This document shows positions 16,826-40,223 of a DNA stretch of 64,000 bases, in pieces (position 1 is the stretch's first letter; the number at the start of each line of letters is the position of its first letter). Under the pieces are notes generated by a model. The model saw only the letters and a list, made by a program, of their open reading frames with translations. It did not search any database and was not told where the DNA came from. The DNA lies in the NCBI GenBank assembly GCA_030680855.1, contig JAUXUN010000070.1, positions 1 through 64,000 of the forward strand. The letters run 5' to 3'. This stretch comes from Aestuariivirga sp. Its GTDB lineage: Bacteria; Pseudomonadota; Alphaproteobacteria; Rhizobiales; Aestuariivirgaceae. Position numbers and translations under genes: made by a program.

Positions 16826-18022
16826 TCAAGGGAGCAGCCCAGCCTTCACTTGTGCAAAAAGCGATGGCGCATTTATCGCTATCCATGCTACATGCGCTCC
16901 CGATTCCGCGACCTTGAACAGGCCACCGTTTCGATCTGGAACAGACTTGACACAACTTACTGCTCCGTTCTCACTCACACGGCCAAGAATTTGCACCCTG
17001 CGACCGAATTGTTCGGTCCAGAAATACGGTGGTTCGGGCTGAACTGTCTGTTGCGCTCCGTAATACATTGTCTCAGCCACCTTGACACCCTGTTGTTTGG
17101 CGCCAGTCCAGGATTCGTCCCTCGCAAACGAGCCATTGGGGCATTCCACTGACGCCACATCTCCGGCAACATAGACACGTGGAACCACATTGTGGCCCAT
17201 ACTCAGCGCCGAACCCGAAGCATCGCACAAAACACCGTCACGAATAGCCAATCCGCTATTGATCAACCAATCCACCGCCGGCCGCGCGCCGACGGCGCTT
17301 ATGATGAGATCACTCTCAATCGCCACACCGGATCCCAAGGTAACTGCGCACACGCCATGATCGCAGCGAATTGACTCGATACGAACCCCCAAATGGAGGT
17401 CAACGTTCCATTCCTTCATCCAATCGATGGCCCGCGCACCCATCCCGCGCCCCAGCAGGCGGACAAGCGGCAGCGATGCGGCGTCCACCATCGAAACTTG
17501 CAAGTCCTGTTGCCGGAGCGACGAAGCAATCTCCGTTCCCAGAACACCAGCTCCGATAACCGCCACATGCTTTGCACCGGCGTCCACTGCATGGCGCAAG
17601 GCCAGAGCATCACCGGCCGTTCTCAGGGCAAAAACGCCATCCGGTTCAATCGGAAGCCTTCTTGGCTGCGCTCCGGTGGCAATCACCACGGCATCGGCAG
17701 ATATGTTTCGCTCCGCACCCGAGGTATCCCGCAAACGAAGCGCCCTGCGCTGCGCGTCGAACGCCACCGCTCTTGCGCGAATAACTTCGCAATCGGGCGA
17801 CCACCACCGAGGGGTTTCAATCTCCGTGTTCTGAGCCAGAAACCGTTTTGACAGTGGAGGGCGATCATAGGGGGCGAACGGGTCACAATCGATTGCCTGT
17901 ATCCGTCCCGTAAACCCAAGCTCCCGGAGGCGCGTAATACAGGCGCCTCCGGCAAGTGAAGCCCCAACAATCGCCACGGTTTCGGATGGCTCAAGGCCAC
18001 CTTGCACTTTCTCAGGGCTCAT
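16826..18022 (-). CDS. Ferredoxin reductase, FAD/NAD-dependent (P450 electron transfer)
   Basis: 398 residues from ATG 18022 (AGAGG at seven bases). FAD motif AIVGASLAGGACITRLRELG near residue 15, then PYDRPPLSKRFL, the NAD motif VIGAGVLGTEIASSL near residue 145 and the FAD-closing VYVAGDVA near residue 280. These are features of putidaredoxin-reductase-type enzymes that pass electrons from NADH to a small ferredoxin. The gene is last in the minus-strand cluster reductase - 7Fe ferredoxin - P450 - 3Fe-4S ferredoxin - this reductase, 14 bases after the small ferredoxin, so it is probably that protein's partner. Confidence 0.88.
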   Translation of the reverse strand: MSPEKVQGGLEPSETVAIVGASLAGGACITRLRELGFTGRIQAIDCDPFAPYDRPPLSKRFLAQNTEIETPRWWSPDCEVIRARAVAFDAQRRALRLRDTSGAERNISADAVVIATGAQPRRLPIEPDGVFALRTAGDALALRHAVDAGAKHVAVIGAGVLGTEIASSLRQQDLQVSMVDAASLPLVRLLGRGMGARAIDWMKEWNVDLHLGVRIESIRCDHGVCAVTLGSGVAIESDLIISAVGARPAVDWLINSGLAIRDGVLCDASGSALSMGHNVVPRVYVAGDVASVECPNGSFARDESWTGAKQQGVKVAETMYYGAQQTVQPEPPYFWTEQFGRRVQILGRVSENGAVSCVKSVPDRNGGLFKVAESGAHVAWIAINAPSLFAQVKAGLLP

Positions 18023-18036
18023 ATGACTACCTCTTG

Positions 18037-18234
18037 CTACCCGGATATCGTGATCGCGCCCTCGGGGCAGTTCGTACATGCCCTTCTAACCTTCTCCTGG
18101 AGCTCCGGTTTCACATTTTCAAAGCCTTCGCGAACGCGGGAAAAGCCCTCGTCATCGAAAACAAACGTCTCTGGCGCAAACGCAGCGCATCTTGCATGTC
18201 CCTGACAGCGCTTCGCATCAAGTGCAACCTTCAT
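18037..18234 (-). CDS. P450-associated single-cluster ferredoxin
   Basis: 65 residues from ATG 18234, with AGGAGG seven bases upstream; a GTG one codon earlier is possible. The cluster motif is C-x2-H-x2-C at the N-terminus (RCQGHARC) with CTNCP near the C-terminus, the pattern of the [3Fe-4S] or His-substituted ferredoxins that serve bacterial cytochromes P450. It lies 11 bases after the P450 gene. It should carry electrons from the following reductase to the P450 heme. Confidence 0.9.
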   Translation of the reverse strand: MKVALDAKRCQGHARCAAFAPETFVFDDEGFSRVREGFENVKPELQEKVRRACTNCPEGAITISG

Positions 18235-18245
18235 CACAACGCCTC

Positions 18246-19418: not shown

Positions 19419-19504
19419 CTTCGTCTCTCCTGTTCACATGTTGTGCGGTTACATAACCCGCGAGTTTAAACGGCAGCAAAGTCGGCAGAAAACGGGACTC
19501 TCAC

Positions 19505-19849
19505 TCAACCATCCACCCCTCCCTTGTTAAGCGCCAGCACACGAGGAAGGTCCGTATCAAGGGGGCCAACCTTCGATGCGCCACGCGGGGTTCCCAATGG
19601 GCTATCCCGCCCCGGCAAGACCGAGTCGAAAAACGTACGTGCCTCCAGCAGGTCTTCCGTGGAGTGATCTCTGTCGACGTAATATATGGCTGTGACCGGG
19701 CACACGGATTCACAGGCACCGCAGTCAATGCATTCCACGGGATGAATCCAGAACCGCCTTGAACCCTCGTAAATACAATCAACAGGGCATACATCGACGC
19801 AAGCCTGGTCACGGCTTTGTAAACATGCATCTCCGATGACGTATGGCAT
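19505..19849 (-). CDS. Seven-iron ferredoxin (FdxA-like)
   Basis: 114 residues. Cys9, Cys17 and Cys21 form a [3Fe-4S]-type set (DACLQSRDQACVDVCPVDC), and CIDCGACESVCP a [4Fe-4S] set. Family members are about 110 residues, so it is full length. It follows the NAD(P)-linked reductase by three bases and precedes the P450 by 86 bases. It is probably a second electron carrier for the P450 or for another oxidoreductase of the island. Confidence 0.9.
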   Translation of the reverse strand: MPYVIGDACLQSRDQACVDVCPVDCIYEGSRRFWIHPVECIDCGACESVCPVTAIYYVDRDHSTEDLLEARTFFDSVLPGRDSPLGTPRGASKVGPLDTDLPRVLALNKGGVDG

Positions 19850-19852
19850 TAA

Positions 19853-20839
19853 TTATTCTGCTCCATGTGTGCTGTGACCCGGAAAGACCTGCTGGGCCGG
19901 ATCAATCGCAGCAGCAATATGGTTGACGGCAATGGCCGCCTCACCAAAACCCACCGAAATCAGACGGACCTTGCCAGGGTATTCGCTGACGTCACCGGCT
20001 GCAAAAATCCGTTCACGCGAGGTCTGCATGTCCGGCCGGACGCAAAAATGAATGCCGATGCGCTCCAGTCCCCAAGCCCCGAGCGGCCCAAGATCGGAAG
20101 TGAAGCCTAGCGCCATGATCAGTTTGTCGCAGGGCAATACCTGATCCCCAGCGCCAGGCTGACGGACCACGACGGCCTCGACCGAAATGCCGGCCCGCAG
20201 TTCCTGAATCTCACCGGGAGCGATGATGCGAACCCTGCCGGAACGCATCTCTTCAACATTTGCCTCATGCGCCCGGAACCTTGCCCGCCGGTGTACAACC
20301 GCCACCGACTTTGCTCTCGGGATGGCGGCAAGCGCCCAATCGACAGCGCTGTCGCCACCGCCCACGATCACTACGTCCTGACCGTCCAGAGCCGAGAGTT
20401 TTGGTACAAAATGAAGGACGCCCTCCGGCAAAGGAGCCTGAATCGTCGGCAGGGACTTCGGGGTAAAACTGCCAAGCCCGGCCGCGATCAGGATTGCCCG
20501 GGTGACGATGACACGCCCCTCGCTGGTGGTGAGCCGATAAAGACCATCATCGGCCGTATCGAGTTCTCCGACAGTTTCGGACAGCAGAAGATTGTAGTCA
20601 TGCTGAGCGGCTTGCTGCAAAAGGTTGTTGACGAGCTCCGTTCCACGGATCGACGCGAATCCGGCGACATCGCGAATTTCTTTCTCGGGATACATTGCGG
20701 TGATCTGTCCGCCGGCCTCCGGCAGCGCATCCACAACCGTCGTCTTGAGACCGCGGAAGCCCGCATAGTAGGCCGCGTACAAGCCGACAGGGCCCGCACC
20801 AACTATGACAATGTCATTGGGATCAACATCAACCGGCAT
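19853..20839 (-). CDS. Ferredoxin-NADP reductase, thioredoxin-reductase-like type
   Basis: 328 residues. FAD motif IVGAGPVGLYAAYYAGFRG near residue 12, PEAGGQITAMYPEKEIRDVAG, the NADP motif VIVGGGDSAVDWALAA near residue 155 and IFAAGDVSEYPGKVRLI near residue 285. The redox CxxC of true thioredoxin reductase is absent, which places it with TrxB-like ferredoxin-NADP reductases. It heads the P450 cluster, and the ferredoxin at 19505 follows by three bases. Two unrelated reductases in one P450 cluster is unusual. Confidence 0.88.
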   Translation of the reverse strand: MPVDVDPNDIVIVGAGPVGLYAAYYAGFRGLKTTVVDALPEAGGQITAMYPEKEIRDVAGFASIRGTELVNNLLQQAAQHDYNLLLSETVGELDTADDGLYRLTTSEGRVIVTRAILIAAGLGSFTPKSLPTIQAPLPEGVLHFVPKLSALDGQDVVIVGGGDSAVDWALAAIPRAKSVAVVHRRARFRAHEANVEEMRSGRVRIIAPGEIQELRAGISVEAVVVRQPGAGDQVLPCDKLIMALGFTSDLGPLGAWGLERIGIHFCVRPDMQTSRERIFAAGDVSEYPGKVRLISVGFGEAAIAVNHIAAAIDPAQQVFPGHSTHGAE

Positions 20840-21431
20840 AACTTACCTCACCTTGACAAGAATGGTTTTGGCCCGGGAGTAACTGCCAATCGTGGCAAGA
20901 TGAAGCGACTCTAGTCTTCCTGACAAACCTGCCATATCTCAGACACTCCATATCAAATCCCCATCGTGGCCGGAACTTTTCCATCAGCGACCCGGACCAC
21001 AACCCAGGTTTCGACCATGAAAACGACCCGGATATTAAGATCGATAAGCTTCATTCCCGTATCTCTTGTTTTGCGTGGTCCATAATTCATCATGCTGCAA
21101 GAATATCACTCCAATACCATTACGTTGGCGTGACAAAATATCCAGAGAAGGCCTTTGCACTTGGCCATGGTTTGTGGGTTCCGCATTTTGGAAGCTCCGG
21201 GGCTGTGAAATTATGCATCCTGGTACTCCAATTTGATATTGGCCTTGGTGCCTGCGGTCCATTCGTAGAAATCGCAATCTGCCGTCTGTCCATATCCGTG
21301 TCTCCATGGGTGCGTAGTAACTCCAAAAAATATCAAAGATAGTTGGCCGTCACATCTCGATTATTAGTTTTTACTTGCGTCGTCTGCCGGTCTTCATTGC
21401 GCGCCGGGCGCAAAGTAACGGACCAAATTCT
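20840..21431. other. 592-base intergenic region, no gene recognised
   Basis: Frames of 60-90 codons exist on both strands without domain, start signal or coding look. A short hairpin (TTGCGC...GCGCAA) lies at about 21397-21415, right after the SDR stop, and may end the mutase operon. The promoter of the P450 cluster should lie in the left part. Confidence 0.4.
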
Positions 21432-22193
21432 TCAGTAGATCAACCATCCGCCATCGACCGGAAGCTGAGCTCCGGTGATGTAACTCGCGTCATCGGACAA
21501 CAAAAAAGCAATTGCGGCAGCTATCTCATCCGCACGACCCGATCGTCTCAGAGCCGAGTGTCCATGGACGTATTCTTGATACTGATCCGATGCTGGATTC
21601 GAGCCGCCAAAGCCCGTCTCAATAAGGCCTGGCGCGATTGCATTGATGCGAATGTTTTTGCGTCCAAGATCATGGGCCAGCGTTCTCGTCATGGTCTTTA
21701 CGCCGCCTTTGGAGGAGGCGTAATGCGGCTGGGTGTTTTCTCCGCTCGCGACAACCACTTCCGCCTCGATTGAGGTAATATTCACAATAGCGCCTCCACC
21801 CGCTTCTTCGATTGCGGGCACGCATGCCTGTGTCATCAGGAACACTCCTTTGAGATTCACATCGATGACCAGATTCCACCCCGCCTCATCCATATCGGAG
21901 AGCCCTTGCATGGTCAGGGCACCGGCGCTGTTGACGAGGTTCGTAATTTTTCCGAACGACTTCTTCGCATGTGCCACAGCGGCTTCGATAGCCGCGCGGT
22001 TGCGTACGTCACATGGGGCACTGTCTGCCTGTCCCCCACTTTTCTTAATCTTTTCGGCTGTCTCTCTAGCCGTATCCCCCGATAGATCGAGACACATCAC
22101 GGCCCCTCCCTCGGATGCGATACGCAAAGCCGCAGCCCTGCCCATTCCAGAACCCGCACCGGTTATGACAGTAACAGTACCCGAAAACCGCAT
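21432..22193 (-). CDS. SDR-family oxidoreductase
   Basis: 253 residues from ATG 22193 after GGGAGAAG. TGAGSGMG is the cofactor motif, NSAGA the structural motif, Ser in NITSIEAE and YASSK the catalytic residues, and the end GAQLPVDGGW is classical. It oxidises or reduces an alcohol/ketone with NAD(P). It is the last gene of the long minus-strand mutase operon (85 bases after ridA) and could act on a hydroxyacyl-CoA or alcohol of the pathway. Confidence 0.88.
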   Translation of the reverse strand: MRFSGTVTVITGAGSGMGRAAALRIASEGGAVMCLDLSGDTARETAEKIKKSGGQADSAPCDVRNRAAIEAAVAHAKKSFGKITNLVNSAGALTMQGLSDMDEAGWNLVIDVNLKGVFLMTQACVPAIEEAGGGAIVNITSIEAEVVVASGENTQPHYASSKGGVKTMTRTLAHDLGRKNIRINAIAPGLIETGFGGSNPASDQYQEYVHGHSALRRSGRADEIAAAIAFLLSDDASYITGAQLPVDGGWLIY

Positions 22194-22278
22194 TTCACTT
22201 CTCCCTATTTCCAATCTGGCTTCTTAGTTTTGTTCCAACACACCTCTGACGCAGTAACCGGAAAATGAAACCGAAGTT

Positions 22279-22677
22279 TTAAATTACGGCGGTAACTTCG
22301 ATCTCAACCGTCGCGCCATCGGCTAACAAACCACCTACTTCTATGAGAGTCATGGCGGGATAGACGCCCCCGATTATATTTTTGTACAGCGAACCAATCG
22401 CTTTTCTCTCCGCGATATAGTTGCGCTTATCCAAAACGTACCATGTCATTCTCACAATATTCTTCGGACACGAACCCGCTTCATAAAGTATTTCAGCCAC
22501 ATTTTTCAGCGCTTGTCCGACCTGTGAAAGAAAGTCACCTTCCAGTTTCTCCTTCACATTGTCCTGGCCCAACTGGCCGGACACAAAGATAAAACGCCCC
22601 TCTGCAATAGTGGCATGGGAATACCCGCTCGGTCGTGACCATTGATCTAGTTCAACTACATCGACTTTCACGATCAA
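22279..22677 (-). CDS. RidA-family (YjgF/UK114) protein
   Basis: 132 residues, normal length. SGYSHATIAEGRFIFVSGQLG and the C-terminal YPAMTLIEVGGLLADGATVEIE are family hallmarks, but the Arg that binds the imine substrate in true RidA is not evident (GGVYPAMT instead of the usual PxRxT), so deaminase activity is doubtful. Relatives in catabolic operons often act on enamine or related intermediates. It lies between an enoyl-CoA hydratase and an SDR in the mutase operon. Confidence 0.82.
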   Translation of the reverse strand: MIVKVDVVELDQWSRPSGYSHATIAEGRFIFVSGQLGQDNVKEKLEGDFLSQVGQALKNVAEILYEAGSCPKNIVRMTWYVLDKRNYIAERKAIGSLYKNIIGGVYPAMTLIEVGGLLADGATVEIEVTAVI

Positions 22678-22741: not shown

Positions 22742-23500
22742 TCATACTGCAGCCTTCGTTATCCGATCGGCGGTCGATGGATCAAGGAAACCACGCACCG
22801 CCGCGTCGGTTTCAAGCGTCATCGCCTGTTCAAGATCAAGGTGATAGGCTTGATTGACAACACGCTTCAAATCGCTAACGGACTGCTTCGGGCGTTCACA
22901 TATCTTGCGCGCCAATTCGAGCGCGGTGCCTTCAAGATCAGTCAGCTCAACCGTTTTTCCTGCGATCCCAAGTGCCAACGCCCGGTCTGCACCAAACTTT
23001 TCACCGAGAATAATCAACTCCTTTGTGCGTTGAGGTCCAATTTGCTTCGTCAAAAGAGTTGTAACCGCGCCAGTGACGAACAAACCATAAGAAATTTCCG
23101 GGAAAAAACATCGGGTCTCTGTCGAAAAGATCGTAAAATCGCAATTAATGATCCATTCAAGCGCCCCGCCCACGGCCCATCCATGGACGGCAGCGATGAC
23201 GATCTTCGGGGAATACAGGATCTCGCGGCTTACCGCCTGATACTGCTCTATGAACGAGCGCAATCCGGCTTCGCTGCTTGTCTGGTTTTCAAAATCCTTA
23301 AGATCGTCACCCGAACTAAAGGCGCGTCCAGCCCCTCGTAATATCACCACGCGGGTCTGTGGATCTGCATTCGATTCCGTCAAGACATGCAATAAATCCC
23401 GAAGTAGTTCACCGTTAACAGCGTTCAGGCGGCCTGGACGATTGAGGGTTATCATCCGTATGCTTTCTTCGACGATCTCGCTCAAAACTGCACCCGGCAT
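22742..23500 (-). CDS. Enoyl-CoA hydratase/isomerase family protein
   Basis: 252 residues from ATG 23500 with GGAGGAAGC just upstream; the open frame reaches back to 23623 inside the mutase gene. AFSSGDDLKDF near residue 62 and AAVHGWAVGGALEWIINCDF near residue 100 form the oxyanion-hole region of the crotonase fold. It would hydrate or isomerise an acyl-CoA made after the mutase. It starts 31 bases after the mutase large subunit stop, so the same transcript is likely. Confidence 0.88.
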   Translation of the reverse strand: MPGAVLSEIVEESIRMITLNRPGRLNAVNGELLRDLLHVLTESNADPQTRVVILRGAGRAFSSGDDLKDFENQTSSEAGLRSFIEQYQAVSREILYSPKIVIAAVHGWAVGGALEWIINCDFTIFSTETRCFFPEISYGLFVTGAVTTLLTKQIGPQRTKELIILGEKFGADRALALGIAGKTVELTDLEGTALELARKICERPKQSVSDLKRVVNQAYHLDLEQAMTLETDAAVRGFLDPSTADRITKAAV

Positions 23501-23531: not shown

Positions 23532-25229
23532 TCAGAAAATTGGATCTTCCCGATAGACTCCCCACACTCCACGCAGAGCATCGCAAATTTCTCCCAGAGT
23601 GGCCCTGGCCTCGACGGCCTCAACCGTTATCGGCAACAGGTTTTGGCTTTCATCCTGGGCAACAACTTTCATTCGCTCAAGAATTTGCTTCACTTGTTCT
23701 TGATTACGGCTTGCCTTTACCTTGCGCAGACGGTCCAGCTGTCGCGCCAAGGTTCCTTCATCATAAGGATGGGCCTCGAAGTCAGCTGGTTTTTCTTCCT
23801 CTACATACTTGTTAACGCCGATTACGGTGCGTTCTCCGCGGGCTTTCCTCAATTCATATTCGTAAGCGGAGTCGGCGCAGATACGCTGCATCCAGCTGGT
23901 TTCTACAGCTCTGATGGCTCCGCCCATTTTGTCGATTTCATTGAGAACCCCGAATACCCTCTCTTCGAATTGGGACGTAAGGGCCTCAATCAAGTATGAA
24001 CCACCGAGCGGATCGACTACAGAAGTAATGTTCGTCTCTTCCGCCAGAACCTGCTGGGTCCGTATGGCAAGTTTCATTGCCTCTTCGGTGGGAATCGTGA
24101 AGGCTTCGTCGAAACCGTTCGTGTGCATACTTTGGGCACCGCCCAGTACAGCAGCAAGTGCCTGCACGGTGGTCCGCATGAGATTTACGTTGTACTGAGG
24201 TTTGGTCAACGTCATTGCGGCAGTTTGGACATGCATCCTCATCCGCATGGACTCGGCCAGCTTGGCGCCAAAACGCTCTTTGATAACTTTGGCGTAAACG
24301 CGCCGGGCTGCCCGGAATTTGGCGATTTCTTCAAAGAAATCCGCCTGGCAAACGTAGAAGAAGGAAAGTCGCGGAGCAAATTCGTCCACTGACATGCCCG
24401 CTTTCATGCATTCTTCAATATAGGTGATGGCGAATGAAATAGTGAACGCGACCTCATGCACGGCATCAGCGCCAACCTCGGATATGTGATATCCCGAGAT
24501 ACTGATCGGATTGAAGCGCTTCGTGTGTTCCGCGCTGTATAGAATCGTGTCGCGTACCAACCTTACAGACGGGCGGATCGGGAATATCCATTCTTTTTGA
24601 GCGATATATTCCTTGAGAATGTCGGCTTGAATAGTTCCTGCCAGCCTATGCGGATCATAACCACGCTTCTTGGCGGCCGAAACGAACATCGCATAAACAA
24701 TGAACGCCGTTGGGTTGATCGTCAGCGAGGCCGAGGTTTTTTCCAGATCGATCCCATCGAAAAGCGCTTCCATGTCATCAAGCGTATCGATGGCCACACC
24801 TTCCCGGCCAACTTCACCGAATGCCATCGGATGATCGGAATCGTAACCCATCAGTGTCGGCATGTCGAAATCGGTCGAGATACCGGTTTGGCCTGCCGCG
24901 ATAAGATATTTGTAACGACGGTTGGTGTCCGCCGGATTGCCGAATCCAGAGACCTGCCGTATCGTCCACGGACGCGCCCGATACATTGTCGGATATGGCC
25001 CACGTGTATAGGGGTAACGCCCCGGTAGTCCGATGTCTTCGGGCGGGATATTTGCCACGTCGGTCGGCGTATACACTCGTTTCAGCGGGATTCCCGATTC
25101 CGTCTTGAACTGATCTTGGGTTTCTGGCTGGCGCGAGAGGGATTCGGCGACCTCATTCGCTTCCCAGTTTGCAAAGCCTTTTGCGATGCTCTCCAGCAAG
25201 GATGTCTGGAATGTTTTAGACGAAGACAT
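23532..25229 (-). CDS. B12-dependent acyl-CoA mutase, large subunit (2-hydroxyisobutyryl-CoA-mutase-like)
   Basis: 565 residues from ATG 25229, covering only the TIM-barrel domain of the methylmalonyl-CoA mutase superfamily, with no B12 domain of its own. Landmarks are RYPYTRGPYPTMYRARPWTI (71-90), GYDSDHP (128-134) and ISGYHISEVGAD (about 245). At the position of Tyr89 of methylmalonyl-CoA mutase it has Val93 (IRQVSGF), and at Arg207 it has Gln211 (AQKEW). Known family work links Ile at the first site to 2-hydroxyisobutyryl-CoA mutase and Gln at the second to non-carboxylated substrates. It therefore should not act on methylmalonyl-CoA. It overlaps the MeaB gene by 14 bases. Confidence 0.92.
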   Translation of the reverse strand: MSSSKTFQTSLLESIAKGFANWEANEVAESLSRQPETQDQFKTESGIPLKRVYTPTDVANIPPEDIGLPGRYPYTRGPYPTMYRARPWTIRQVSGFGNPADTNRRYKYLIAAGQTGISTDFDMPTLMGYDSDHPMAFGEVGREGVAIDTLDDMEALFDGIDLEKTSASLTINPTAFIVYAMFVSAAKKRGYDPHRLAGTIQADILKEYIAQKEWIFPIRPSVRLVRDTILYSAEHTKRFNPISISGYHISEVGADAVHEVAFTISFAITYIEECMKAGMSVDEFAPRLSFFYVCQADFFEEIAKFRAARRVYAKVIKERFGAKLAESMRMRMHVQTAAMTLTKPQYNVNLMRTTVQALAAVLGGAQSMHTNGFDEAFTIPTEEAMKLAIRTQQVLAEETNITSVVDPLGGSYLIEALTSQFEERVFGVLNEIDKMGGAIRAVETSWMQRICADSAYEYELRKARGERTVIGVNKYVEEEKPADFEAHPYDEGTLARQLDRLRKVKASRNQEQVKQILERMKVVAQDESQNLLPITVEAVEARATLGEICDALRGVWGVYREDPIF

Positions 25230-26196
25230 CTTTCTTCTCTCCATTCAAATTTGTGAGCAACCATCGCGCTGCGGAGTGCGGATCAAGTTTTTTATTGACC
25301 ATTTGATCGCACAGATTGGATACGGCACCTTGACGCTCTTCGTAGAAGCGCCCTCTGATTATGGCTTCCGCAATTCTCAGCATACGCGTTTCTGCTATTT
25401 TCCGGTTTCGGGTCTTTATCTCGCCGGAACTCAACAGATACTTGCGATGGCCATCAATTGCGTTTGCCAAATCAGCAATGCCTTGCTCTTTCAACGCACT
25501 GGTGCCGACGACCTGCGGCTCCCACCCGGATGCAACCTTCGTAAGATCTCCGAGTTTCAACATTCCCTTGAGCGATCGGATCGTGTCATTGGCGTCCGAC
25601 CGATCGCATTTGGTGACGATGTGGATATCCGCAATTTCCAACACACCAGCCTTGATGGCCTGGATATCATCGCCCAGACCCGGTGCCGAAGCGACAACAA
25701 CCGTATGGGCAGCCTGAACAATTTCCACTTCGTCCTGGCCTACCCCAACGGTTTCAATGATGATGATGTCAAATCCTGCAGAATCTAAAATATCGACGGC
25801 ATCAAGGCAGCCGCGCGACAACCCGCCCATGGCACCGCGCGTCGCCATGCTGCGGATGAAGATGCCTGGATCCATGGCGATATCAGACATCCTGATCCTG
25901 TCGCCAAGGATTGCTCCTCCGGAAAATGGGCTAGTCGGATCGATTGCTATAATCCCAACCTTACGCCCAGACTGGCGAAATTCCGCCGCCAAAACTGATG
26001 TTAGCGTCGACTTTCCGCTTCCCGGCACACCGGTTATTCCGACAACATGGGCATTTCCTGCATGCCGGAAAATCTTCGCCATGGCAGGCCGGCATTCGTC
26101 GTTTGCAGCCTCGGCGCGGGAAATCAGCCGAGCAATTGCGACTGTCTCGCCTCGAAGCACTCCGGGAACAAAGTCCATTGACGCTATTTTATTCAT
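25216..26196 (-). CDS. meaB: MeaB/ArgK-type GTPase chaperone of the acyl-CoA mutase
   Basis: 326 residues from ATG 26196; the frame runs to 26325 inside the ligase gene. Walker A is GVPGSGKST near residue 57, followed by DPTSPFSGGAILGDRIRM and the ETVGVGQDEVE motif, all typical of MeaB G proteins. These load adenosylcobalamin into the mutase and protect or eject damaged cofactor using GTP. It sits between the CoA ligase (seven-base gap) and the mutase large subunit (overlap), an arrangement I recall from 2-hydroxyisobutyryl-CoA mutase loci (meaH). Confidence 0.93.
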   Translation of the reverse strand: MNKIASMDFVPGVLRGETVAIARLISRAEAANDECRPAMAKIFRHAGNAHVVGITGVPGSGKSTLTSVLAAEFRQSGRKVGIIAIDPTSPFSGGAILGDRIRMSDIAMDPGIFIRSMATRGAMGGLSRGCLDAVDILDSAGFDIIIIETVGVGQDEVEIVQAAHTVVVASAPGLGDDIQAIKAGVLEIADIHIVTKCDRSDANDTIRSLKGMLKLGDLTKVASGWEPQVVGTSALKEQGIADLANAIDGHRKYLLSSGEIKTRNRKIAETRMLRIAEAIIRGRFYEERQGAVSNLCDQMVNKKLDPHSAARWLLTNLNGEKKDVFV

Positions 26197-26203
26197 TTTC
26201 TTA

Positions 26204-27625
26204 TCAACGCGCCTTGCCCTGGTGGGAGGCAAACAGGTTTCGATCATCGATGACACGCCGGGCCTTGTGTTGAGCGCGCTCCAGCGTGCCGGGCGCAAGA
26301 ATTTCCACCTTGGCACGCACCCCAATACCGCGCTGTAAGAGGGTCGATGCCTGATCTCTCATTACCTTAATAGCGGAATCGCCGGCGAAATAGACTTCAG
26401 GCGTTGCTTCGATTTGAACGAAGAGCTCATCCATCGCCCCGGATCGCGTGATTATCACGCGATGCTCACCACCGTATTGGGGCAATCCGGCGACCACAGA
26501 CTCGATATCGCTCGGATATACGTTTTCCGCACGTATCTGGAACATATCATCGATACGACCATACAGCCCCTTCGGCAAATACGGGTATGTACGTCCGCAC
26601 GGGGAGGGACCCTCCTCCCACATGGTGAGATCGCCCGAAGCCAAACGGATCATCGGCTGAGAGGTCCGCTCCAGATGGGTGTAGACCGGAGTGCCCTGAC
26701 TGCCGTAAGGGACCCGTTTGAAAGTCTTGGCATCACAGACTTCGTGATACACAATGTCCTGCCACAGGATCATACCTAGATTCGTCGCGCTATTGCCCGC
26801 TGACGACAGCCATGGCGTCATTTCAGCCATTGTCCCGCAGTCGATGACTTTTGCGCCATAAGTTTCTTCAAGCTTGTTACGTATGGCTGGAATCGACGCG
26901 CCGGGCTCCCCCGAACACATCATGATCTTAAGGCCGAATTCTCTCGGATCGATCTTCTCTTCACGGGCCACTTCGGCGAGGTGCATCGCATAAGATGGCG
27001 TATTGTAGATCGCCTTTGGTTTTACCAGCTTCAGCCAGCGAGCGGCGATTGCCGTTTGACCTGCAGCCCCGGCACCGAATGGGAAACATTTTGCGCGCAG
27101 GCGTTCCGCCCCAACCAAGATACCCCAGGAACCTATATAAAGGCTGAACAACGCGCCGACGAAAACGATATCGCCCGGACGGATGCCAAAACTCCACATG
27201 ATCCGAGCATGGGCATTGCCTATCGCATCCCAGTCGTCCCTGCCGATCGAAAAAATCACCGGACGTCCGGTCGTGCCAGAGGTTCCATGAATACGGTGCA
27301 CTTCCGATTCCGGAATGCAGAGATAATCCCCAAAGGGGGCCGCGCGCTCCTGCGCCGCACGCAGTTCCTGCTTGGTGACCACCGGGACTTCTTCAAAATC
27401 TTCCAGGGATTTTATCCGATCAGGATGGATGCCCGCCTCATCCCACTTATTCTTGTAGAAGGGCGATTTCGCATAAGCATACTGCATCACCTCCCTAAGG
27501 CGCGTGATAACCGCTTTTTCGCGTTCCCTCGGATCCATCGTCTCGCGAACCGGATACCAGTAAGGAGAGGCTGCGTCAGGCAAGTAATTAGGATCGAATT
27601 TTGGTGGAAATACCCAATTTTCCAT
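26204..27625 (-). CDS. Acyl-CoA ligase, PaaK-like adenylate-forming enzyme
   Basis: 473 residues. The ATP-binding loop is HGTSGTTGRPV near residue 112; YGAKVIDCGTMAEMTP follows near residue 270, and the C-terminal domain begins at GRIDDMFQIRAENVYPSDIE near residue 365, as in phenylacetate-CoA ligases. It activates a carboxylic acid to its CoA ester through an acyl-AMP. Lying between the two mutase subunits it most likely makes the mutase substrate, as the 2-hydroxyisobutyrate-CoA ligase does in similar clusters. It is 41 bases downstream of the small-subunit gene. Confidence 0.9.
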   Translation of the reverse strand: MENWVFPPKFDPNYLPDAASPYWYPVRETMDPREREKAVITRLREVMQYAYAKSPFYKNKWDEAGIHPDRIKSLEDFEEVPVVTKQELRAAQERAAPFGDYLCIPESEVHRIHGTSGTTGRPVIFSIGRDDWDAIGNAHARIMWSFGIRPGDIVFVGALFSLYIGSWGILVGAERLRAKCFPFGAGAAGQTAIAARWLKLVKPKAIYNTPSYAMHLAEVAREEKIDPREFGLKIMMCSGEPGASIPAIRNKLEETYGAKVIDCGTMAEMTPWLSSAGNSATNLGMILWQDIVYHEVCDAKTFKRVPYGSQGTPVYTHLERTSQPMIRLASGDLTMWEEGPSPCGRTYPYLPKGLYGRIDDMFQIRAENVYPSDIESVVAGLPQYGGEHRVIITRSGAMDELFVQIEATPEVYFAGDSAIKVMRDQASTLLQRGIGVRAKVEILAPGTLERAQHKARRVIDDRNLFASHQGKAR

Positions 27626-27666
27626 TATCTGAACACCTTGCGTGAGTTAAACCCTGAGATGCGTGA

Positions 27667-28083
27667 TCACGCTGCATCCCGCTCTGATACCACCCGGCGA
27701 ATCGTTGACACAATCTGCTCTGGCGTCGAATCTTGCCGTAGAATATCGGCAACCCCCATTTCCTTAAGCTTGACGATATCGTCATCAGGCATTAGACCGC
27801 CGCCAACGAGAATAATGTGTTCGGCATTTTTGGCCTTCATCAGGGCTATTACCTTTGCGAATAGCGGCATGTGCGCCCCGGACAATAAACTCACGCCCAG
27901 AACATCCACATCTTCCTGGATAGCCGCCGAGACGACCTCTTCGGGAGAACGATGCAATCCGGCATAGACGACATCGATTCCTGCATCGCGGAGTACGCGC
28001 GCAACGATTTTCACACCACGGTCATGGCCATCCAATCCCAGCTTGGACAGCAATACGCGTATAGGTGCATTTTCTTTCGTCAT
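27667..28083 (-). CDS. B12-binding small subunit of the acyl-CoA mutase
   Basis: 138 residues from ATG 28083 (TGGAG nine bases upstream); an ATG five codons earlier is possible but its GGGAG is too close. The base-off cobalamin motif is GLDGHDRG with the lower ligand His20, then SLLSG and GGGLMP, a complete Rossmann-type B12 domain. Asp118 (RQDSTP) aligns by eye with the Asp that recognises the 2-hydroxy group in HcmB, where methylmalonyl-CoA mutase has TPGT. It pairs with the large subunit at 23532 although two genes lie between them. Confidence 0.93.
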   Translation of the reverse strand: MTKENAPIRVLLSKLGLDGHDRGVKIVARVLRDAGIDVVYAGLHRSPEEVVSAAIQEDVDVLGVSLLSGAHMPLFAKVIALMKAKNAEHIILVGGGLMPDDDIVKLKEMGVADILRQDSTPEQIVSTIRRVVSERDAA

Positions 28084-28139
28084 ATTGAGTTTCTCCATGC
28101 TCCCAATACTGGGATATCTTCTTTCGTCATTTGGTGCCG

Positions 28140-28886
28140 TCAGTTTTGCAACGGCATGAGCAGCCCGTTTCCGGGATGCAGAGTGCTCTCCGCACGCTCA
28201 AGCTCACTCTTTATGAGATGCACCGCATAGCGCACATGATTCAGGGCCAGCCGCTCAGCCTCTTCCCCGTCCCCCGCGAGTATCGCCTTAATAATTTGCT
28301 TGTGTTCACCCCAGGTGCCCTCCGCCCAGTCGTGCTTCGTCAGGTATGCCGACATCACCCAACGCAAGCGGTTCCAGAGCACCTCCATCGTCTCGCCAAT
28401 AACGACATTGCCAGAGAGTTCATAGATAAACCCGTGAAAGGCGATATCGGCCGATATCAATCCGGAAATTGATCCTGAGCCAAGCGCGGCATCGCCCATC
28501 TCCACTAGACGGCCAAACTTTGCCCTCGCAGTGCGTGCCTGATCGCGAGACTTGCAGTTCTGAGAAGCCCGACTCGCGGCAAGGCGGTCCAATGCACCCC
28601 GCACAGCATAGACTGCTTCGACATAATCCGGCTTTAATGTCGCAACCATCAGGCCGCGCCGCCCGACGTCGCACACGAATCCCTGGCTTTTCATTAGAGC
28701 GAGTGCATGCCCGACTGGCTGCCTCGAAACATTTAGGCGTTCCGCAAGCCATTCCTGCCCCAGCCGTGTGCCCGGAGGAAGGCGTCCGCTGCAAATGGTA
28801 TCAAGCAGGACCGCGTATACCCGGTCAACCAGCCCGTCCGGACCGTTCTGCTTCTGTTTCTGTTTCTGTTTCGCTGCCTTCGCCAT
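28140..28886 (-). CDS. GntR-family (FCD domain) transcriptional regulator
   Basis: 248 residues. After a KQKQKQ repeat come a winged helix (LGQEWLAERLNVSRQPVGHALALMKSQGF, residues 42-70) and an all-helical FCD ligand domain with DIAFHGFIYELSGN, whose His residues usually bind a metal and a small acid. It is the first gene of the minus-strand mutase operon, 56 bases before the small subunit, and is divergent from the glutamine-synthetase-like gene. It probably controls both directions in response to a pathway acid. Two ATTGNATGCA repeats lie 28-50 bases upstream. Confidence 0.9.
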   Translation of the reverse strand: MAKAAKQKQKQKQNGPDGLVDRVYAVLLDTICSGRLPPGTRLGQEWLAERLNVSRQPVGHALALMKSQGFVCDVGRRGLMVATLKPDYVEAVYAVRGALDRLAASRASQNCKSRDQARTARAKFGRLVEMGDAALGSGSISGLISADIAFHGFIYELSGNVVIGETMEVLWNRLRWVMSAYLTKHDWAEGTWGEHKQIIKAILAGDGEEAERLALNHVRYAVHLIKSELERAESTLHPGNGLLMPLQN

Positions 28887-28913
28887 GGTCGATCAATCTA
28901 GTTTGTCTTGATT

Positions 28914-28938
28914 ATTGAATGCACTCATTGTATGCAAT
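28914..28938. promoter_or_regulatory. Tandem ATTGNATGCA repeats, candidate GntR operator
   Basis: ATTGAATGCA (28914-28923) and ATTGTATGCA (28927-28936) are direct repeats three bases apart, and the second sits in the near palindrome ATTGTATGCAAT. They lie in the 288-base divergent region between gntR and the glutamine-synthetase-like gene. FCD-type GntR proteins bind short AT-rich sites of this sort. The rest of this region, to 29174, holds no gene. Confidence 0.5.
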
Positions 28939-29174: not shown

Positions 29175-30563
29175 ATGGCAAATAAATCAAAAATTTATAA
29201 CGATCCTGCAAAAACAAAAGCTGCACTTGAGGAGATGGAGAAGAAGGGCGTCAAATACGTCCAAATCGAGGTTCCGGACATGGACGGCATGTTACGTGGC
29301 AAAATCGTGAAGCCAAGCAAGGGCCTCGGCGATCTCGGCAACGCGTATTGTACCATCTTGTACGGGTTGTCGACCCAGGACGACGTCATGGAGTCCGAGT
29401 TCAGTTCCTTTGAGAACGGATTTCCGGATCTATTCACAGTCCCTGATCTAAATTCCGTTATTCATCACACTTGGCGGCCTGATTTTGCTGCGGTCGTCTG
29501 CGACATGGTTGATTCCAAAGATGGATCCCTTTGCCCTATGTCGCCGCGCTCTGTGCTGCGGATGGCGGTCGAAAAGGCGGAGGCGATGGGGTATCAGCAT
29601 CGCTGCGCCATCGAATACGAAGCTTATATCATGAAGGCTGATAACGACCTGATCAGGAACGGAAAGCATTACGATCTTTCCATGGTCAGCCGCACGATGA
29701 ATGCTTACAGCCTGACGCGAATTGCCGATATCGAAGAACTGATGCTGAAATTCCATGAGCGTCTCGCAAGCGTTGGCATTTCAATCGACTCGTTCCACTG
29801 CGAGCTTGGCTATGGGCAGGTTGAATTTGCGCTTTCGCATGCGCCTACAATGGAGATGGCGGATCGCGCGGCGCGGTCGAAGCTGTATTTCAAGCAACTA
29901 TGTGCCGAGCACGGTCTGGTCGCCACCTTCATGTCGAAATGGAGGATCGGTGATACCGGCACCGGAGCGCACATCCACCATAGTTTGTGGAAGGGCGGGA
30001 ATCCAGCCTTCTCGACTGGTAAAGCGGGTGAGTTGTCCGACGTCGGAAAACAATTCGCTGCAGGGATGATCGATCTGATGCCGGAAGTCACGGCCATCTA
30101 TAATCCGGTCATCAATTCCTATCGCCGCCGCAGCAGCCGGCAGTGGTGCCCGGAAAATGCTTCCTGGGCCGAAGACAACCGAACCGCCGCCCTGCGGGCA
30201 ATAACGAGGCCAAAGCCCGAAGGTGTACGTATCGAAACGCGGCAGCCCGGCGGAGATGCGAATCCGTATCTGTCAATTGCCGCCGGCCTTCTCACCGGAC
30301 TTCACGGGATTGAGAATAAGTTGGTGCCACTAAGCTACGCAACGGGTAACGCTGGCGATGACAAGCGGTTTCGGCGTCTTCCGAGAAACCTCAGAGACGC
30401 CACCGAAGCGTTCAAGAAGTCCCAAAAGGTACATGAGCTTTTCGGGTCCGAATTCGTCGGGCAGTATGCCATGACCAGAGAAACGGAATGTGATCTCTGG
30501 GACAAATGGCTTGAGGACAACGTCACCGAATGGGAACTCAAACGGTACTTCGATACGATCTGA
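29175..30563 (+). CDS. Glutamine-synthetase-family ligase (gamma-glutamylamide synthetase type)
   Basis: 462 residues. It has the type I glutamine synthetase plan: IEVPDMDGMLRGK in the N-terminal beta-grasp, IEYEAYIM and GYGQVEFALS metal-site glutamates, GTGAHIHHSLW ATP-site histidine and RIETRQPGGDANPYLSIAA. The spacing and the lack of the adenylylation-loop motif suggest a relative of PuuA, GlnT or IpuC that joins glutamate to an amine rather than a housekeeping enzyme. It is divergent from gntR and followed by the ABC ATPases, which hints that an amine is taken up and gamma-glutamylated. The amine is unknown. Confidence 0.87.
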   Translation: MANKSKIYNDPAKTKAALEEMEKKGVKYVQIEVPDMDGMLRGKIVKPSKGLGDLGNAYCTILYGLSTQDDVMESEFSSFENGFPDLFTVPDLNSVIHHTWRPDFAAVVCDMVDSKDGSLCPMSPRSVLRMAVEKAEAMGYQHRCAIEYEAYIMKADNDLIRNGKHYDLSMVSRTMNAYSLTRIADIEELMLKFHERLASVGISIDSFHCELGYGQVEFALSHAPTMEMADRAARSKLYFKQLCAEHGLVATFMSKWRIGDTGTGAHIHHSLWKGGNPAFSTGKAGELSDVGKQFAAGMIDLMPEVTAIYNPVINSYRRRSSRQWCPENASWAEDNRTAALRAITRPKPEGVRIETRQPGGDANPYLSIAAGLLTGLHGIENKLVPLSYATGNAGDDKRFRRLPRNLRDATEAFKKSQKVHELFGSEFVGQYAMTRETECDLWDKWLEDNVTEWELKRYFDTI

Positions 30564-30673
30564 CCGGTAATAGCCGTTTCACGTAGAGAGAGTTGACGGT
30601 AGAGCAAGTCCCCGCCGTCAACCAGAAGAATAAGCCCCCGGACAATAACGCACACCAAGGGAGGTATCGGCGC

Positions 30674-31423
30674 GTGATACTAGAATTGCAATCTCTCCGA
30701 AAGAGCTTCGGTGGTCTAAGGGCTGTGCAGGGCATCTCCTTCCAACTGCCGCGCGGCGAGATCCGTGGTCTTATAGGGCCGAATGGTGCTGGTAAAACGA
30801 CAATATTCAATCTGATCAGTGGATTTTATAAACCTACTGCGGGCCGGATATTGTTCGACGGCAAAGATATTTCTGGACTAAACATCCATGATATCGCGAA
30901 GCTGGGTATTGTCAGAACATTTCAAGCCACAACGGTTTTCCAGGACTTCACAGTCTTGCAAAATGTGGTAGCAGGCCGGCATCTGCACACCCATTACAAC
31001 ATCCTAACGGCTCTCACCAAGAGTGGACGCGACAATGAGTTCGAAAATGAGCGCCGTGCAATCGAAATACTGGAAATCATTGGGCTTGGCGAAAAAAAGG
31101 ACGAGTTGGCTGCAAATCTCTCCCACGGCCACCAAAAGGCCCTTGGACTTGCCATAGCACTCGCCGCAGACCCCCGCCTCATCTTGCTTGATGAACCTTT
31201 CGCCGGGATGAACCCTGAGGAAACCAACAGAATGATCGATTTAATACGGAAAGTTCGTGATCATCGGATAACAGTGATTCTGGTCGAACATGACATGCAC
31301 GCGGTCATGGCACTATGTGATAAAGTTACGGTCCTGAATTTTGGGAAGCTGCTGGTCGAAGGGACGCCTGCGGAAGTGGTCAAGAACGAAAAAGTAATCG
31401 AAGCCTATCTGGGAGGTGTCTAA
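30674..31423 (+). CDS. Branched-chain-type ABC transporter ATPase, LivG-like
   Basis: 249 residues from GTG 30674 with GGGAGG nine bases upstream; the frame to 30593 adds an unlikely polar leader. Walker A GPNGAGKTT, signature LSHGHQKAL, Walker B LILLDEPFAGM and the switch VEHDM are all present, and the long insert between Walker A and signature is LivG-like. It would power the permeases at 6091-7900. It starts about 110 bases after the glutamine-synthetase-like gene. Confidence 0.92.
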   Translation: MILELQSLRKSFGGLRAVQGISFQLPRGEIRGLIGPNGAGKTTIFNLISGFYKPTAGRILFDGKDISGLNIHDIAKLGIVRTFQATTVFQDFTVLQNVVAGRHLHTHYNILTALTKSGRDNEFENERRAIEILEIIGLGEKKDELAANLSHGHQKALGLAIALAADPRLILLDEPFAGMNPEETNRMIDLIRKVRDHRITVILVEHDMHAVMALCDKVTVLNFGKLLVEGTPAEVVKNEKVIEAYLGGV

Positions 31424-31426
31424 GCG

Positions 31427-32134
31427 ATGCTCCTTGAATTGAAATCGATCGATGTCTACTACGGAAAAATTAAGGCTATCCACCAAGTCTCATTGGCTGT
31501 CGACTCGTCGCAAATTATCACTCTCATCGGAAGCAATGGAGCAGGCAAGAGCACAACACTCCGAACCATTTCCGGATTATCCCACCCAAAAACCGGTGAA
31601 ATTTGGTTCGATGGCGAGCGGATTGACCGTCTTTCGCCTGTAGATATCGTTAAGCGCGGTATCGCGCATGTTCCCGAAGGACGTCGCGTTTTTCCGACCT
31701 TGACCGTATTGCAAAATTTGTACACAGGCGCATATCTGCGGAGGGATCAGAAAAAGATCGATCAAACGCTGGATCAGATTTTTCAATATTTCCCAATTCT
31801 TGCCGAAAGACGCAATCAACGTGCAAACACGTTAAGCGGCGGTGAACAGCAAATGGTGGCAATTGGCCGGGTGCTGATGTCAGCGCCACGGCTTATATTG
31901 ATGGATGAGCCTTCTCTGGGCCTTTCGCCAAAATTGGTGCATGAGATCGCCGGAATCATTCGTAACATCAAGGAAACTGGCGTGCCAATTGTTCTCGTCG
32001 AACAGAATGCAGAATTAGCGCTCAAGTTGGCAAATTATGCTTACGTCATGGAAGTTGGTCGTATCTCATTGAAAGGTCCAGCCGAGGATCTCCATAACAA
32101 CGATCATGTACGCAAAGCCTATCTCGGCGTTTGA
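31427..32134 (+). CDS. Branched-chain-type ABC transporter ATPase, LivF-like
   Basis: 235 residues. Walker A GSNGAGKST, HVPEGRRVFPTLTV after the Q-loop, signature LSGGEQQM, Walker B LILMDEPSLGL and VEQNAE as the switch are classical LivF. It begins three bases after livG, so the two are co-translated. Together with the binding protein and permeases 22 kb away it completes one importer. Confidence 0.93.
   Translation: MLLELKSIDVYYGKIKAIHQVSLAVDSSQIITLIGSNGAGKSTTLRTISGLSHPKTGEIWFDGERIDRLSPVDIVKRGIAHVPEGRRVFPTLTVLQNLYTGAYLRRDQKKIDQTLDQIFQYFPILAERRNQRANTLSGGEQQMVAIGRVLMSAPRLILMDEPSLGLSPKLVHEIAGIIRNIKETGVPIVLVEQNAELALKLANYAYVMEVGRISLKGPAEDLHNNDHVRKAYLGV

Positions 32135-40147: not shown

Positions 40148-40223
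<76 letters not shown>

Follow-up and report, generated by a model that had tools for sequence, protein, structure and literature searches.

An alphaproteobacterial gene set joining an Ipu-type amine module to a divergent B12-dependent acyl-CoA mutase, with a possible role in the breakdown of branched amines

The DNA analysed here (the window) comprises positions 1 to 64,000 of contig JAUXUN010000070.1 from Aestuariivirga sp. An initial annotation had described a candidate catabolic pathway in it, and all of the genes that it named were found at the coordinates and on the strands it gave. A minus-strand run from 28.9 down to 16.8 kb encodes a GntR/FCD regulator, the mutase small subunit, a PaaK-type CoA ligase, MeaB, the mutase large subunit, a crotonase, a RidA-family protein and an SDR, followed on the same strand by a five-gene P450 system (TrxB-like reductase, 7Fe ferredoxin, P450, 65-aa small ferredoxin and FAD ferredoxin reductase). 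A glutamine-synthetase (GS)-like ligase, LivG and LivF lie on the plus strand (Table 1). ORF spacing is operon-like, ranging from overlaps to 86 bp; the exception is the 592 bp separating SDR from TrxB (20840-21431), in which no gene was found. The set as first drawn was present in its core and cut short on one side: it reaches leftward to 4559, and its members between 4.5 and 15.8 kb include an aldehyde dehydrogenase (ALDH), LivKHM, a class I amidotransferase and a cobalamin adenosyltransferase.

Table 1. Features of the gene set and its surroundings in the window. L numbers denote relatives' loci; percentages are identities.
Feature	Position	Strand	Basis
Aldehyde dehydrogenase (proposed aldehyde-to-acid step)	4559..6055	-	PF00171 4.8e-122; orthologue 70% in L106, L153
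LivM-type permease	6091..7035	-	PF02653; 72-75% in L106, L153
LivH-type permease	7022..7996	-	PF02653; 73-76% in L106, L153
LivK-type periplasmic binding protein	8153..9430	-	PF13458 3.8e-52; 78-79% in L106, L153
Candidate regulator site, LivK/amidotransferase divergent promoter	9478..9500	+	ATTGCATNCA exact; extended pattern with 2 mismatches
Class I glutamine amidotransferase, candidate gamma-glutamyl-amide hydrolase	9613..10350	+	PF00117 1.5e-19; Cys and His motifs kept; 66% in L106, L153
PduO-type cob(I)alamin adenosyltransferase	15231..15809	+	PF01923 1.6e-63; 75-76% to L106, L153 copy
FAD ferredoxin reductase	16826..18022 (ORF to 18079; likely start about 18022)	-	Pyr_redox_2 and Reductase_C; 52-53% in L008, L014
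Small ferredoxin, 65 aa	18037..18234	-	59% to small ferredoxin adjoining P450 in Agrobacterium AT13
Cytochrome P450	18246..19418	-	PF00067; heme Cys motif; 78-79% in L008, L014
7Fe/FdxA-like ferredoxin	19505..19849	-	64-65% in Aminobacter SR38 and Agrobacterium AT13 modules
TrxB-like FAD reductase	19853..20839	-	54-57% in Aminobacter SR38 and Agrobacterium AT13 plasmid modules
SDR dehydrogenase (proposed alcohol-to-aldehyde step)	21432..22214	-	PF13561 5e-65; YxxxK kept; 77-78% in L008, L014
RidA-family protein, window only	22279..22677	-	Catalytic Arg to Met; probably outside core
Crotonase	22742..23500 (ORF to 23623; start near 23500)	-	PF00378; both catalytic Glu kept; 60-63% in L008, L014
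Mutase large subunit, Val90/Asp117 type	23532..25244	-	4r3u E 3.4e-243; residues and tree
MeaB/MeaH GTPase chaperone	25216..26325	-	TIGR00750 2.5e-98
CoA ligase, 2-hydroxyisobutyryl-CoA ligase family	26204..27625	-	6hdw E 5.5e-205; altered at 21 otherwise conserved positions
Mutase small (B12-binding) subunit	27667..28098	-	TIGR00640 1.1e-37
GntR/FCD regulator	28140..28886	-	55-59% in L008, L014
Candidate regulator site, GntR/GS divergent promoter	28916..28938	-	ATTGCATACAATGAGTGCATTCA, 0 mismatches
GS-like amine gamma-glutamyl ligase (IpuC-like)	29175..30563	+	35-36% to IpuC of TC1; 80% in L008, L106
LivG ATPase	30593..31423	+	74-75% in L008, L106
LivF ATPase	31427..32134	+	70-71% in L008, L106
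TPR protein, conserved, no role assigned	32131..32898	+	PF13424; 44-46% in L008, L106
Hexapeptide (gamma-carbonic-anhydrase-like) protein	36133..37473	-	PF00132; 42% to Methylibium copy; 45-46% to L008, L014

A search for the neighbourhood in other genomes recovered the minus-strand run, without RidA, in the same order in two further genomes (52-85% identity per gene; the small ferredoxin of these loci was found using a plasmid query), so the run is not a chance arrangement. The P450 and mutase genes, which were to be given up as partners if never conserved together, are co-conserved. R. amnigenus HSP-20 and HGW-Alphaproteobacteria-6 share the gene set, including ALDH, LivKHM, the amidotransferase and PduO; because these two sets are near-identical to each other, only two independent lineages with it are seen, an observation that counts against the pathway proposed below. 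The P450, SDR and GS-like partners differ, as first noted, from those of 2-hydroxyisobutyryl-CoA mutase (HCM) loci. RidA had been listed with them, and it gave no match at E 1 in five relatives' loci (L008, L014, L106, L107, L153). Alignment to UK114-type chains places a Met at Arg105, which we take to be the catalytic residue of the archetypal RidA imine deaminase. On these two grounds RidA is probably not part of the conserved core, and a role as imine hydrolase on 3-iminobutyryl-CoA was dropped. Between 10.8 and 12.8 kb lie a thiolase and an HSD10-like SDR with which the route could be completed; they were left out, since neither has a specific counterpart in the relatives' loci, where the HSD10-like query matches only the conserved SDR.

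The oxidising part of the set resembles the isopropylamine (Ipu) pathway of Paenarthrobacter aurescens TC1. In the accessible text of PMC6776027, glutamylation of isopropylamine is assigned to a GS, hydroxylation to a P450 system and hydrolysis, as a postulate, to an amidotransferase. The window has all three in one gene set, the amidotransferase lying 6.5 kb beyond the P450 operon, and shares with TC1, and with like modules in Aminobacter SR38 and Agrobacterium AT13, a GS-like gamma-glutamyl ligase, a P450 with ferredoxin and reductase, and an amidotransferase; an SDR is present in TC1 as well. The window P450 is 58-60% identical to P450s of ipuC-type (isopropylamine) clusters in ten plasmid records, those of TC1 adjoin annotated ipuC, and two plasmids carry the same set of TrxB, 7Fe ferredoxin, GS, P450, small ferredoxin and amidotransferase. 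The plasmid search gave best matches of 63% for the mutase and 60.5% for the P450, and no GS match at or above 60%. The GS-like ligase itself falls below the NCBIfam glutamate-ammonia ligase cut-offs (type I, 204 bits against 429; type III, TIGR03105, 226 against 470). In TC1 the clusters lead to alaninol and are accompanied by genes for an APC-type permease and an alanine dehydrogenase, whereas the window continues with a CoA ligase and a B12 mutase and has an importer of Liv type. The substrate had been called unreadable from sequence; its class can be read in part from the P450 and synthetase, which make up an Ipu-type alkylamine module, while its exact identity we infer. An amine route is well supported by these comparisons, and the gene set appears to serve the breakdown of tert-butylamine-like branched amines.

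Among solved structures, the mutase is closest to HCM (4r3u), and the order hcmB-ligase-meaB-hcmA indeed matches the mutase loci of Methylibium and Xanthobacter. A plain methylmalonyl-CoA (MCM) or ethylmalonyl-CoA mutase, which superfamily and Pfam and NCBIfam names would allow, has a negligible likelihood: the equivalents of MCM Tyr89 and Arg207, which we take to be carboxylate-binding positions, are Val and Gln in the window mutase, and the two further mutases of the same genome, 31-41% identical to it, have Tyr and Arg there. MCM was rejected on these residues, as the initial annotation had expected. The HCM cassettes hcmB-hcl-meaH-hcmA of Methylibium, Xanthobacter and Aquincola (the last taken from the accessible part of PMC7176365) have gene order, split mutase, PaaK-type ligase, MeaB, GntR, adenosyltransferase and Asp117 in common with the window. 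The window differs from them in its mutase residues and altered ligase, in the addition of a crotonase and an amine-oxidising front end, and in the absence of a TPP lyase nearby.

Pocket residues were counted with two MCM-type rows and two duplicate window loci removed beforehand. Position 90 is Val in the mutases of the window, L008, L014 and L009 (nine Val90 rows in all); in 86 canonical HCM rows it is Ile in 85, Leu in one and never Val. Together with 22 others it makes 23 diagnostic positions that set Val90 mutases apart from canonical HCMs, residues 87, 240 and 336 being diagnostic neighbours of residue 90. Asp117, which presumably binds the hydroxyl in HCM, is kept in the window mutase and in 95 of 95 HCM-like rows. 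The 86 canonical rows form a clade with 100% SH-aLRT that excludes the window mutase, by a quick tree method with a long-branch warning for the R-type rows (below). The window mutase is better described as a sister type of HCM than as a canonical relative. The ligase falls by sequence in the 2-hydroxyisobutyryl-CoA ligase (HCL) family (next family after 6hdw, 7e-65) and differs from 63 canonical rows at its 21 altered positions.

Eight of the nine Val90 loci have a matching crotonase, and at the ninth the contig stops 618 bp after the mutase; canonical HCM loci have a crotonase nearby in 3 of 81 cases, all distant ones. The 81 are the 82 loci fetched minus L117, which is the R. amnigenus Val90 locus again, and 44 of the 82 have at least 5 kb on both sides. 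Short loci were set aside in this count (canonical L007 and L091-L095; R-type L096-L098), longer fetches standing in for some (L116 for L007, L113-L115 for L096-L098). Crotonase relatives (47-50%) also occur beside a PaaK-like ligase with no mutase within the 20 kb fetched (3/3), which counts against the proposal below; the crotonase marks the mutase in one direction only.

Val90 is also found in five operons of a second kind (R-type, dgdA-hcmB-meaB-hcmA-ech-ligase) from Sinorhizobium, Shinella and three genomes of the window's order. All five are in line with dgdA, encoding 2,2-dialkylglycine decarboxylase, a 2-aminoisobutyrate (Aib) enzyme (82-88% identity among these loci); the remaining Val90 context, L009, has dimethylglycine-dehydrogenase-like genes. 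The R-type operons share with the window the Val90 mutase and the crotonase type (50-56%). They differ in that an amino acid decarboxylase stands where the window has its amine module, and in that the HCL-like ligase is replaced by another acyl-CoA ligase, which scores below the cut-off of its nearest model, PRK06155. A dgdA orthologue was absent from all four window-type genomes searched (G000, G041, G042, G043; best match 34-38% identity). DgdA already turns Aib to acetone, so the mutase of the R-type operons could serve another purpose. The AibH1H2 and DgdA routes of PMC7782822 would share the intermediate Aib with the window; in the accessible text Aib is hydroxylated or decarboxylated, no CoA or B12 step is named there, and the term 'mutase' does not occur.

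An extended operator-like pattern occurs at the two divergent promoters of Table 1 and at no other place, in three of three genomes (reversed control, 0). The word ATTGCATNCA by itself is not rarer than chance in the window (2 matches, mean 1.07; 30 of 100 shuffles reach 2), so the weight of its site lies in position and conservation, not rarity. A FadR-type operator, TNGTNNNACNA, gave 9 matches against 7.9 expected and was dropped. The best model is that the whole gene set forms one regulon with these candidate sites. It is very improbable that an Ipu-type pathway and a 2-hydroxyisobutyrate cassette came to be adjacent here by chance: each module is found separately elsewhere, yet the two stand in a single run whose order is shared by two lineages, one operator-like site recurs at both divergent promoters in three genomes, and the mutase and ligase subtype is special to these loci.

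We propose, with a probability of roughly 55%, that this regulon serves growth, by way of Aib-CoA rearrangement, on an alpha-tertiary alkylamine, of which tert-butylamine or its alcohol 2-amino-2-methylpropanol would be the simplest case. In favour of this stand the Ipu-like P450 and plasmid modules, the conservation of the set and of the operator-like site, a mutase outside the canonical clade, the linkage of Val90 to dgdA and to a crotonase, and the absence of a dgdA orthologue from the window-type genomes searched. The order of the oxidation steps and all reactions from the ligase onward are, like the substrate, those we infer. LivKHMGF would import a substrate; the GS-like synthetase would join the amine to glutamate as a gamma-glutamyl amide; the P450 with its ferredoxins and reductases would hydroxylate a methyl group of that amide; SDR and ALDH would take the alcohol to the acid; and the amidotransferase would free Aib. 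The ligase would then form Aib-CoA, which the Val90/Asp117 mutase, with MeaB and adenosylcobalamin supplied through PduO, would convert to 3-aminobutyryl-CoA, turning a quaternary-carbon amine into a removable one. The crotonase would eliminate ammonia to give crotonyl-CoA for beta-oxidation. Amines on tert-butyl and other quaternary carbons do not undergo direct deamination; as the nitrogen sits on a carbon without hydrogen, no enzyme of the set should be able, on chemical grounds, to remove it before rearrangement. The mutase probably handles a nitrogen-bearing acid rather than the oxygen-bearing acid of its known relatives, and to call the Val90/Asp117 mutases 2-aminoisobutyryl-CoA mutases is tentative, close to an even bet. 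We know of no amino-acyl-CoA mutase of the HCM family.

Several observations weigh against this proposal: Asp117 is kept throughout, the ligase is nearest to 2-hydroxyisobutyryl-CoA ligase (6hdw), and R. amnigenus has a 3-hydroxyacyl-CoA dehydrogenase downstream of its copy (48% to the Methylibium one). They fit a reading, unlikely but the weightiest of the rivals, in which the amine module is real, its product is 2-hydroxyisobutyrate or a homologue, and the mutase is an ordinary 2-hydroxyisobutyryl-CoA mutase; isobutylamine hydroxylated at its tertiary carbon, or 1-amino-2-methylpropan-2-ol, would be example substrates, and a CH2-NH2 group would lose its amine easily. An ordinary enzyme would not be expected to differ at Ile90 and 22 other conserved positions beside a ligase changed at 21, nor to adjoin dgdA; an amine oxidase or amine dehydrogenase was not recognised in the conserved set, and simpler routes are known for isobutylamine. 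The Aib scheme might also run on a larger homologue, with isovaline formed from tert-amylamine, or with a different 2-alkyl-alanine. A longer side chain would be accommodated by Val90 and the other changes, Ile to Val widening the pocket; dialkylglycine decarboxylase also accepts isovaline, and the crotonase is conserved. Chain length is not separable by sequence, and we regard this variant as improbable.

If the Aib-CoA proposal is right, a carbon-skeleton shift before deamination would be a new answer to the chemistry of quaternary-carbon amines, relevant to the pollutants tert-butylamine and 2-amino-2-methylpropanol and to fungal Aib. To our knowledge, no B12 carbon-skeleton mutase with an alpha-amino acyl-CoA as its substrate was known earlier; an Aib-CoA mutase would be the first, and would open alpha-tertiary amines to the loss of their nitrogen. 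Two settings would exist for it: in the window it would be supplied through amine glutamylation and the P450, in the dgdA operons directly by Aib. In a literature search that was thin on subscription journals, 'aminoisobutyryl-CoA' was not found, and no work on bacterial tert-butylamine genes was among the matches listed. The accessible part of PMC7176365 states that the natural substrate of many HCM-type loci is not known. The Val90 type with dgdA supplies a testable candidate for such loci, and a small residue set could divide HCM-like genes into two substrate classes. The hexapeptide protein of Table 1, whose membership of the gene set is uncertain, is of a kind common in HCM loci, such a gene lying near 43 of the 81 canonical ones.

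All the genes listed in the initial annotation were found in the window, including a five-gene P450 system whose fifth member is a 65-residue ferredoxin, and the genes of the mutase locus run small subunit, ligase, MeaB, large subunit, as they do in Methylibium PM1 and Xanthobacter Py2. An excerpt of PMC7176365 describes hcl, hcmAB and meaH as grouped in operon-like fashion with a GntR gene close by. The boundary first drawn around the set was too narrow, as 4.5-15.8 kb holds further genes: aldehyde dehydrogenase (ALDH), LivM, LivH, LivK, a class I glutamine amidotransferase (GATase) and a PduO adenosyltransferase. Searching for the neighbourhood elsewhere recovered counterparts in Rhodobacter amnigenus and HGW-Alphaproteobacteria-6. 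One R. amnigenus locus (L106) is contiguous for the glutamine-synthetase-like ligase (GS), LivG, LivF, TPR, PduO, GATase, LivK, LivH, LivM and ALDH (44-80% identity to the window, the TPR protein being least identical). A separate contig (L014) carries GntR, HcmB, ligase, MeaB, HcmA, crotonase, SDR, TrxB, ferredoxin, P450, small ferredoxin (found by a query from a plasmid) and ferredoxin reductase at 52-85%. Both halves are also present in HGW-Alphaproteobacteria-6 (L008, L153); because its copies and those of R. amnigenus are close to each other in the tree, we count two independent lineages. A search of the relatives' loci, five in all, at E 1 gave no match to RidA, originally proposed as a pathway partner, or to the window's thiolase.

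The window P450 is 58-60% identical to P450s of ten plasmid records, including pTC1 and pTC2 of Paenarthrobacter aurescens TC1, on which ipuC is annotated no more than 2 kb away; the next matches drop to 33-36%. The Aminobacter SR38 and Agrobacterium AT13 plasmids share with the window a GS-like ligase, P450, small ferredoxin and amidotransferase, along with a TrxB-like reductase (54-57%) and a 7Fe ferredoxin (64-65%). The window's amidotransferase, however, is merely ~30% like those of ipuC-type clusters, and the search of the SR38 module returned no match to it. The window GS falls far under the glutamate-ammonia ligase model cut-offs and shares 35-36% identity with the IpuC proteins of TC1; its top plasmid match is from Rhodococcus (40%), in clusters that have no P450 within the stretch shown. 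According to a portion of PMC6776027, IpuC forms gamma-glutamyl-isopropylamide, which the P450 system then hydroxylates to gamma-glutamyl-alaninol, and alaninol release by an amidotransferase is postulated; part of PMC11335346 places IpuC-type ligases among the glutamyl organic amide synthetases. The likenesses of the P450, plasmid module and GS identify the front end as an alkylamine-type module.

The window mutase is closest to 2-hydroxyisobutyryl-CoA mutase (HCM; 4r3u, 3.4e-243), with methylmalonyl-CoA mutase second (1.7e-139). Of 97 aligned rows, 86 are canonical HCMs, which group in a clade with full support that excludes the mutases of the window, L008, L014, a further locus L009 and five dgdA-linked (R-type) operons; the tree was made by a quick method and carries a long-branch warning for the R-type rows. 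With window Val98 and Asp125 numbered 90 and 117, Val90 is found in all nine of these excluded mutases and Ile (85) or Leu (1) in the canonical ones, and Asp117 is present in 95/95 HCM-like rows; Ile90 and Asp117 are residues of the HCM substrate pocket. The Val90 and canonical sets are separated by 23 positions, including 87, 90, 240 (four residues ahead of the active-site Tyr-His pair) and 336. Seven more mutases sampled from the class are all canonical at these four, and none has the crotonase of the Val90 loci within about 1.5 kb. The window ligase is closest to 2-hydroxyisobutyryl-CoA synthetase (6hdw, 5.5e-205; next family 7e-65) and differs at 21 positions from 63 canonical rows; Met146, Met190 and Arg193, invariant in those 63, are Phe, Gln and Ile in 4/4 window-type rows.

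Val90 mutases also differ from canonical ones in their neighbours. In all five R-type loci (L109, L110 and L113-L115, from Sinorhizobium meliloti LMB1, Shinella WSC3-e and G098, G133 and G225 of the window's order) a 2,2-dialkylglycine decarboxylase gene, dgdA, precedes hcmB, meaB, hcmA, crotonase (ech) and acyl-CoA ligase. The S. meliloti decarboxylase matches 1d7r at 1.6e-196 (next family 1e-65), and the other copies are 82-88% identical to it. The nearest model for the R-type ligase is PRK06155, under its cut-off; a crotonobetaine/carnitine-CoA ligase model ranks third. An excerpt of PMC7782822 gives 2-aminoisobutyrate (Aib) as the decarboxylase substrate and calls this the sole enzyme then known for Aib; these operons possibly encode a second route. 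In L009, which is the third context of Val90 mutases, two FAD oxidoreductase genes (L009:68-4980; DAO with FAO_M, one adding aminomethyltransferase domains as in dimethylglycine/sarcosine dehydrogenases) lie upstream of a 72% identical Val90 cassette. Around 81 canonical loci, of unequal length (5 kb on both sides in 44/82 rows printed), we found DgdA once (31%), amidotransferase once (32%), crotonase three times (28-33%), and no GS, P450 or L009-type FAD protein. A TPP lyase is near 26/81 canonical loci (three merely 24-31% alike) versus 0/9 Val90 loci.

We favor, with a probability of about 0.55, a pathway in which an alpha-tertiary amine is converted to Aib and the mutase rearranges Aib-CoA. 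Glutamylation and hydroxylation of a methyl group, together with the SDR, ALDH and amidotransferase reactions, would take a tert-butylamine-like substrate to Aib with one gene per step. No enzyme able to take nitrogen off an H-free carbon was recognized in the set, and the four window-type genomes yielded no DgdA orthologue (best 34-38%; G043, at 2.3 Mb, may be incomplete). We infer every step from the ligase on: the mutase would convert Aib-CoA to 3-aminobutyryl-CoA, and the crotonase, which retains both catalytic Glu, is the candidate for ammonia elimination to crotonyl-CoA. Elimination and transamination to acetoacetyl-CoA are the two known fates of 3-aminobutyryl-CoA in the part of PMC3149608 concerned. 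A rather unlikely alternative is that the mutase acts on a hydroxy acid downstream of the amine module; Asp117 and kinship to the HCM ligase (HCL) are equally compatible with it, and R. amnigenus has a 3-hydroxyacyl-CoA dehydrogenase close to its copy. Confidence in the Aib-CoA pathway is held down by these points, by DgdA adjoining the R-type mutase as an existing exit for Aib, and by crotonase kin in other pathways (3/3 outside loci with a PaaK-like ligase and without a mutase, one of them in the window's own genome with biotin-carboxylase subunits present). That last locus, L143 (G000:C60:16001-36000), combines its PaaK-like ligase with a crotonase that is 47% like the R-type one, and also encodes an HpcH-type lyase and subunits of carboxyl transferase and biotin carboxylase.

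The GntR/GS and LivK/GATase intergenic regions share a conserved 10-base word, ATTGCATNCA. Each holds one copy, and these two are the only ones in the 64-kb window, a count not unusual by itself (shuffle mean 1.07; 30/100 shuffles reach 2). An extended 23-base pattern derived from sites of the window, L008/L014 and L106 was searched with up to 2 mismatches, overlapping reverse readings being scored as one. It matched two places per genome in three whole genomes, the window LivK/GATase site at the 2-mismatch limit, and its reversed control none. The second HGW-Alphaproteobacteria-6 site, absent from pattern building, is located between LivK and GATase; it is not independent of its R. amnigenus counterpart, to which it is nearly identical. 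We take these operator-like sites as good evidence for one regulon, of which the GntR protein is probably the controller.

The mutase has no match at E 1e-150 in 24 same-genus genomes; at the level of the order, 10 of 249 genomes pass 1e-220, with >65% identity only in the window's own. In the R. amnigenus family 1/295 passes 1e-255, R. amnigenus itself, and for the P450 1/385 genomes of the class passes 1e-120, again the window's own. The G+C of the set is 0.52-0.53 versus 0.58 at 48-64 kb and 0.61 at 10.4-14 kb, which together with an integrase-core remnant suggests that the set was acquired. Further features of the window are tabulated.

Coordinates of individual features in the window
Feature	Position	Strand	Remarks
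GTP cyclohydrolase I	2846-3364	+	match restricted to positions 2-89 of 179-position profile; gene probably shortened
Transposase remnant	3478-4119	-	integrase-core (rve) match
4HBT_2 thioesterase-like protein	14016-14534	-	kin to C-terminal part of carnitine 3-dehydrogenase; no match in relatives' loci
Small ferredoxin	18037-18234		
TPR protein	32131-32898	+	beside LivF; 44-46% in both relatives
Second flanking stretch	34246-34896	-	transposase-like by eye, without Pfam match
Second cobalamin adenosyltransferase (PF01923), gamma-carbonic-anhydrase-like gene, frame-broken MeaB	35515-38544	-	no mutase between; likely remnant of another HCM locus
tRNA-Lys	40148-40223		close to SduA gene
Shedu-type SduA nuclease	41406-42608	+	PADLOC 1.3e-122; candidate phage defense gene
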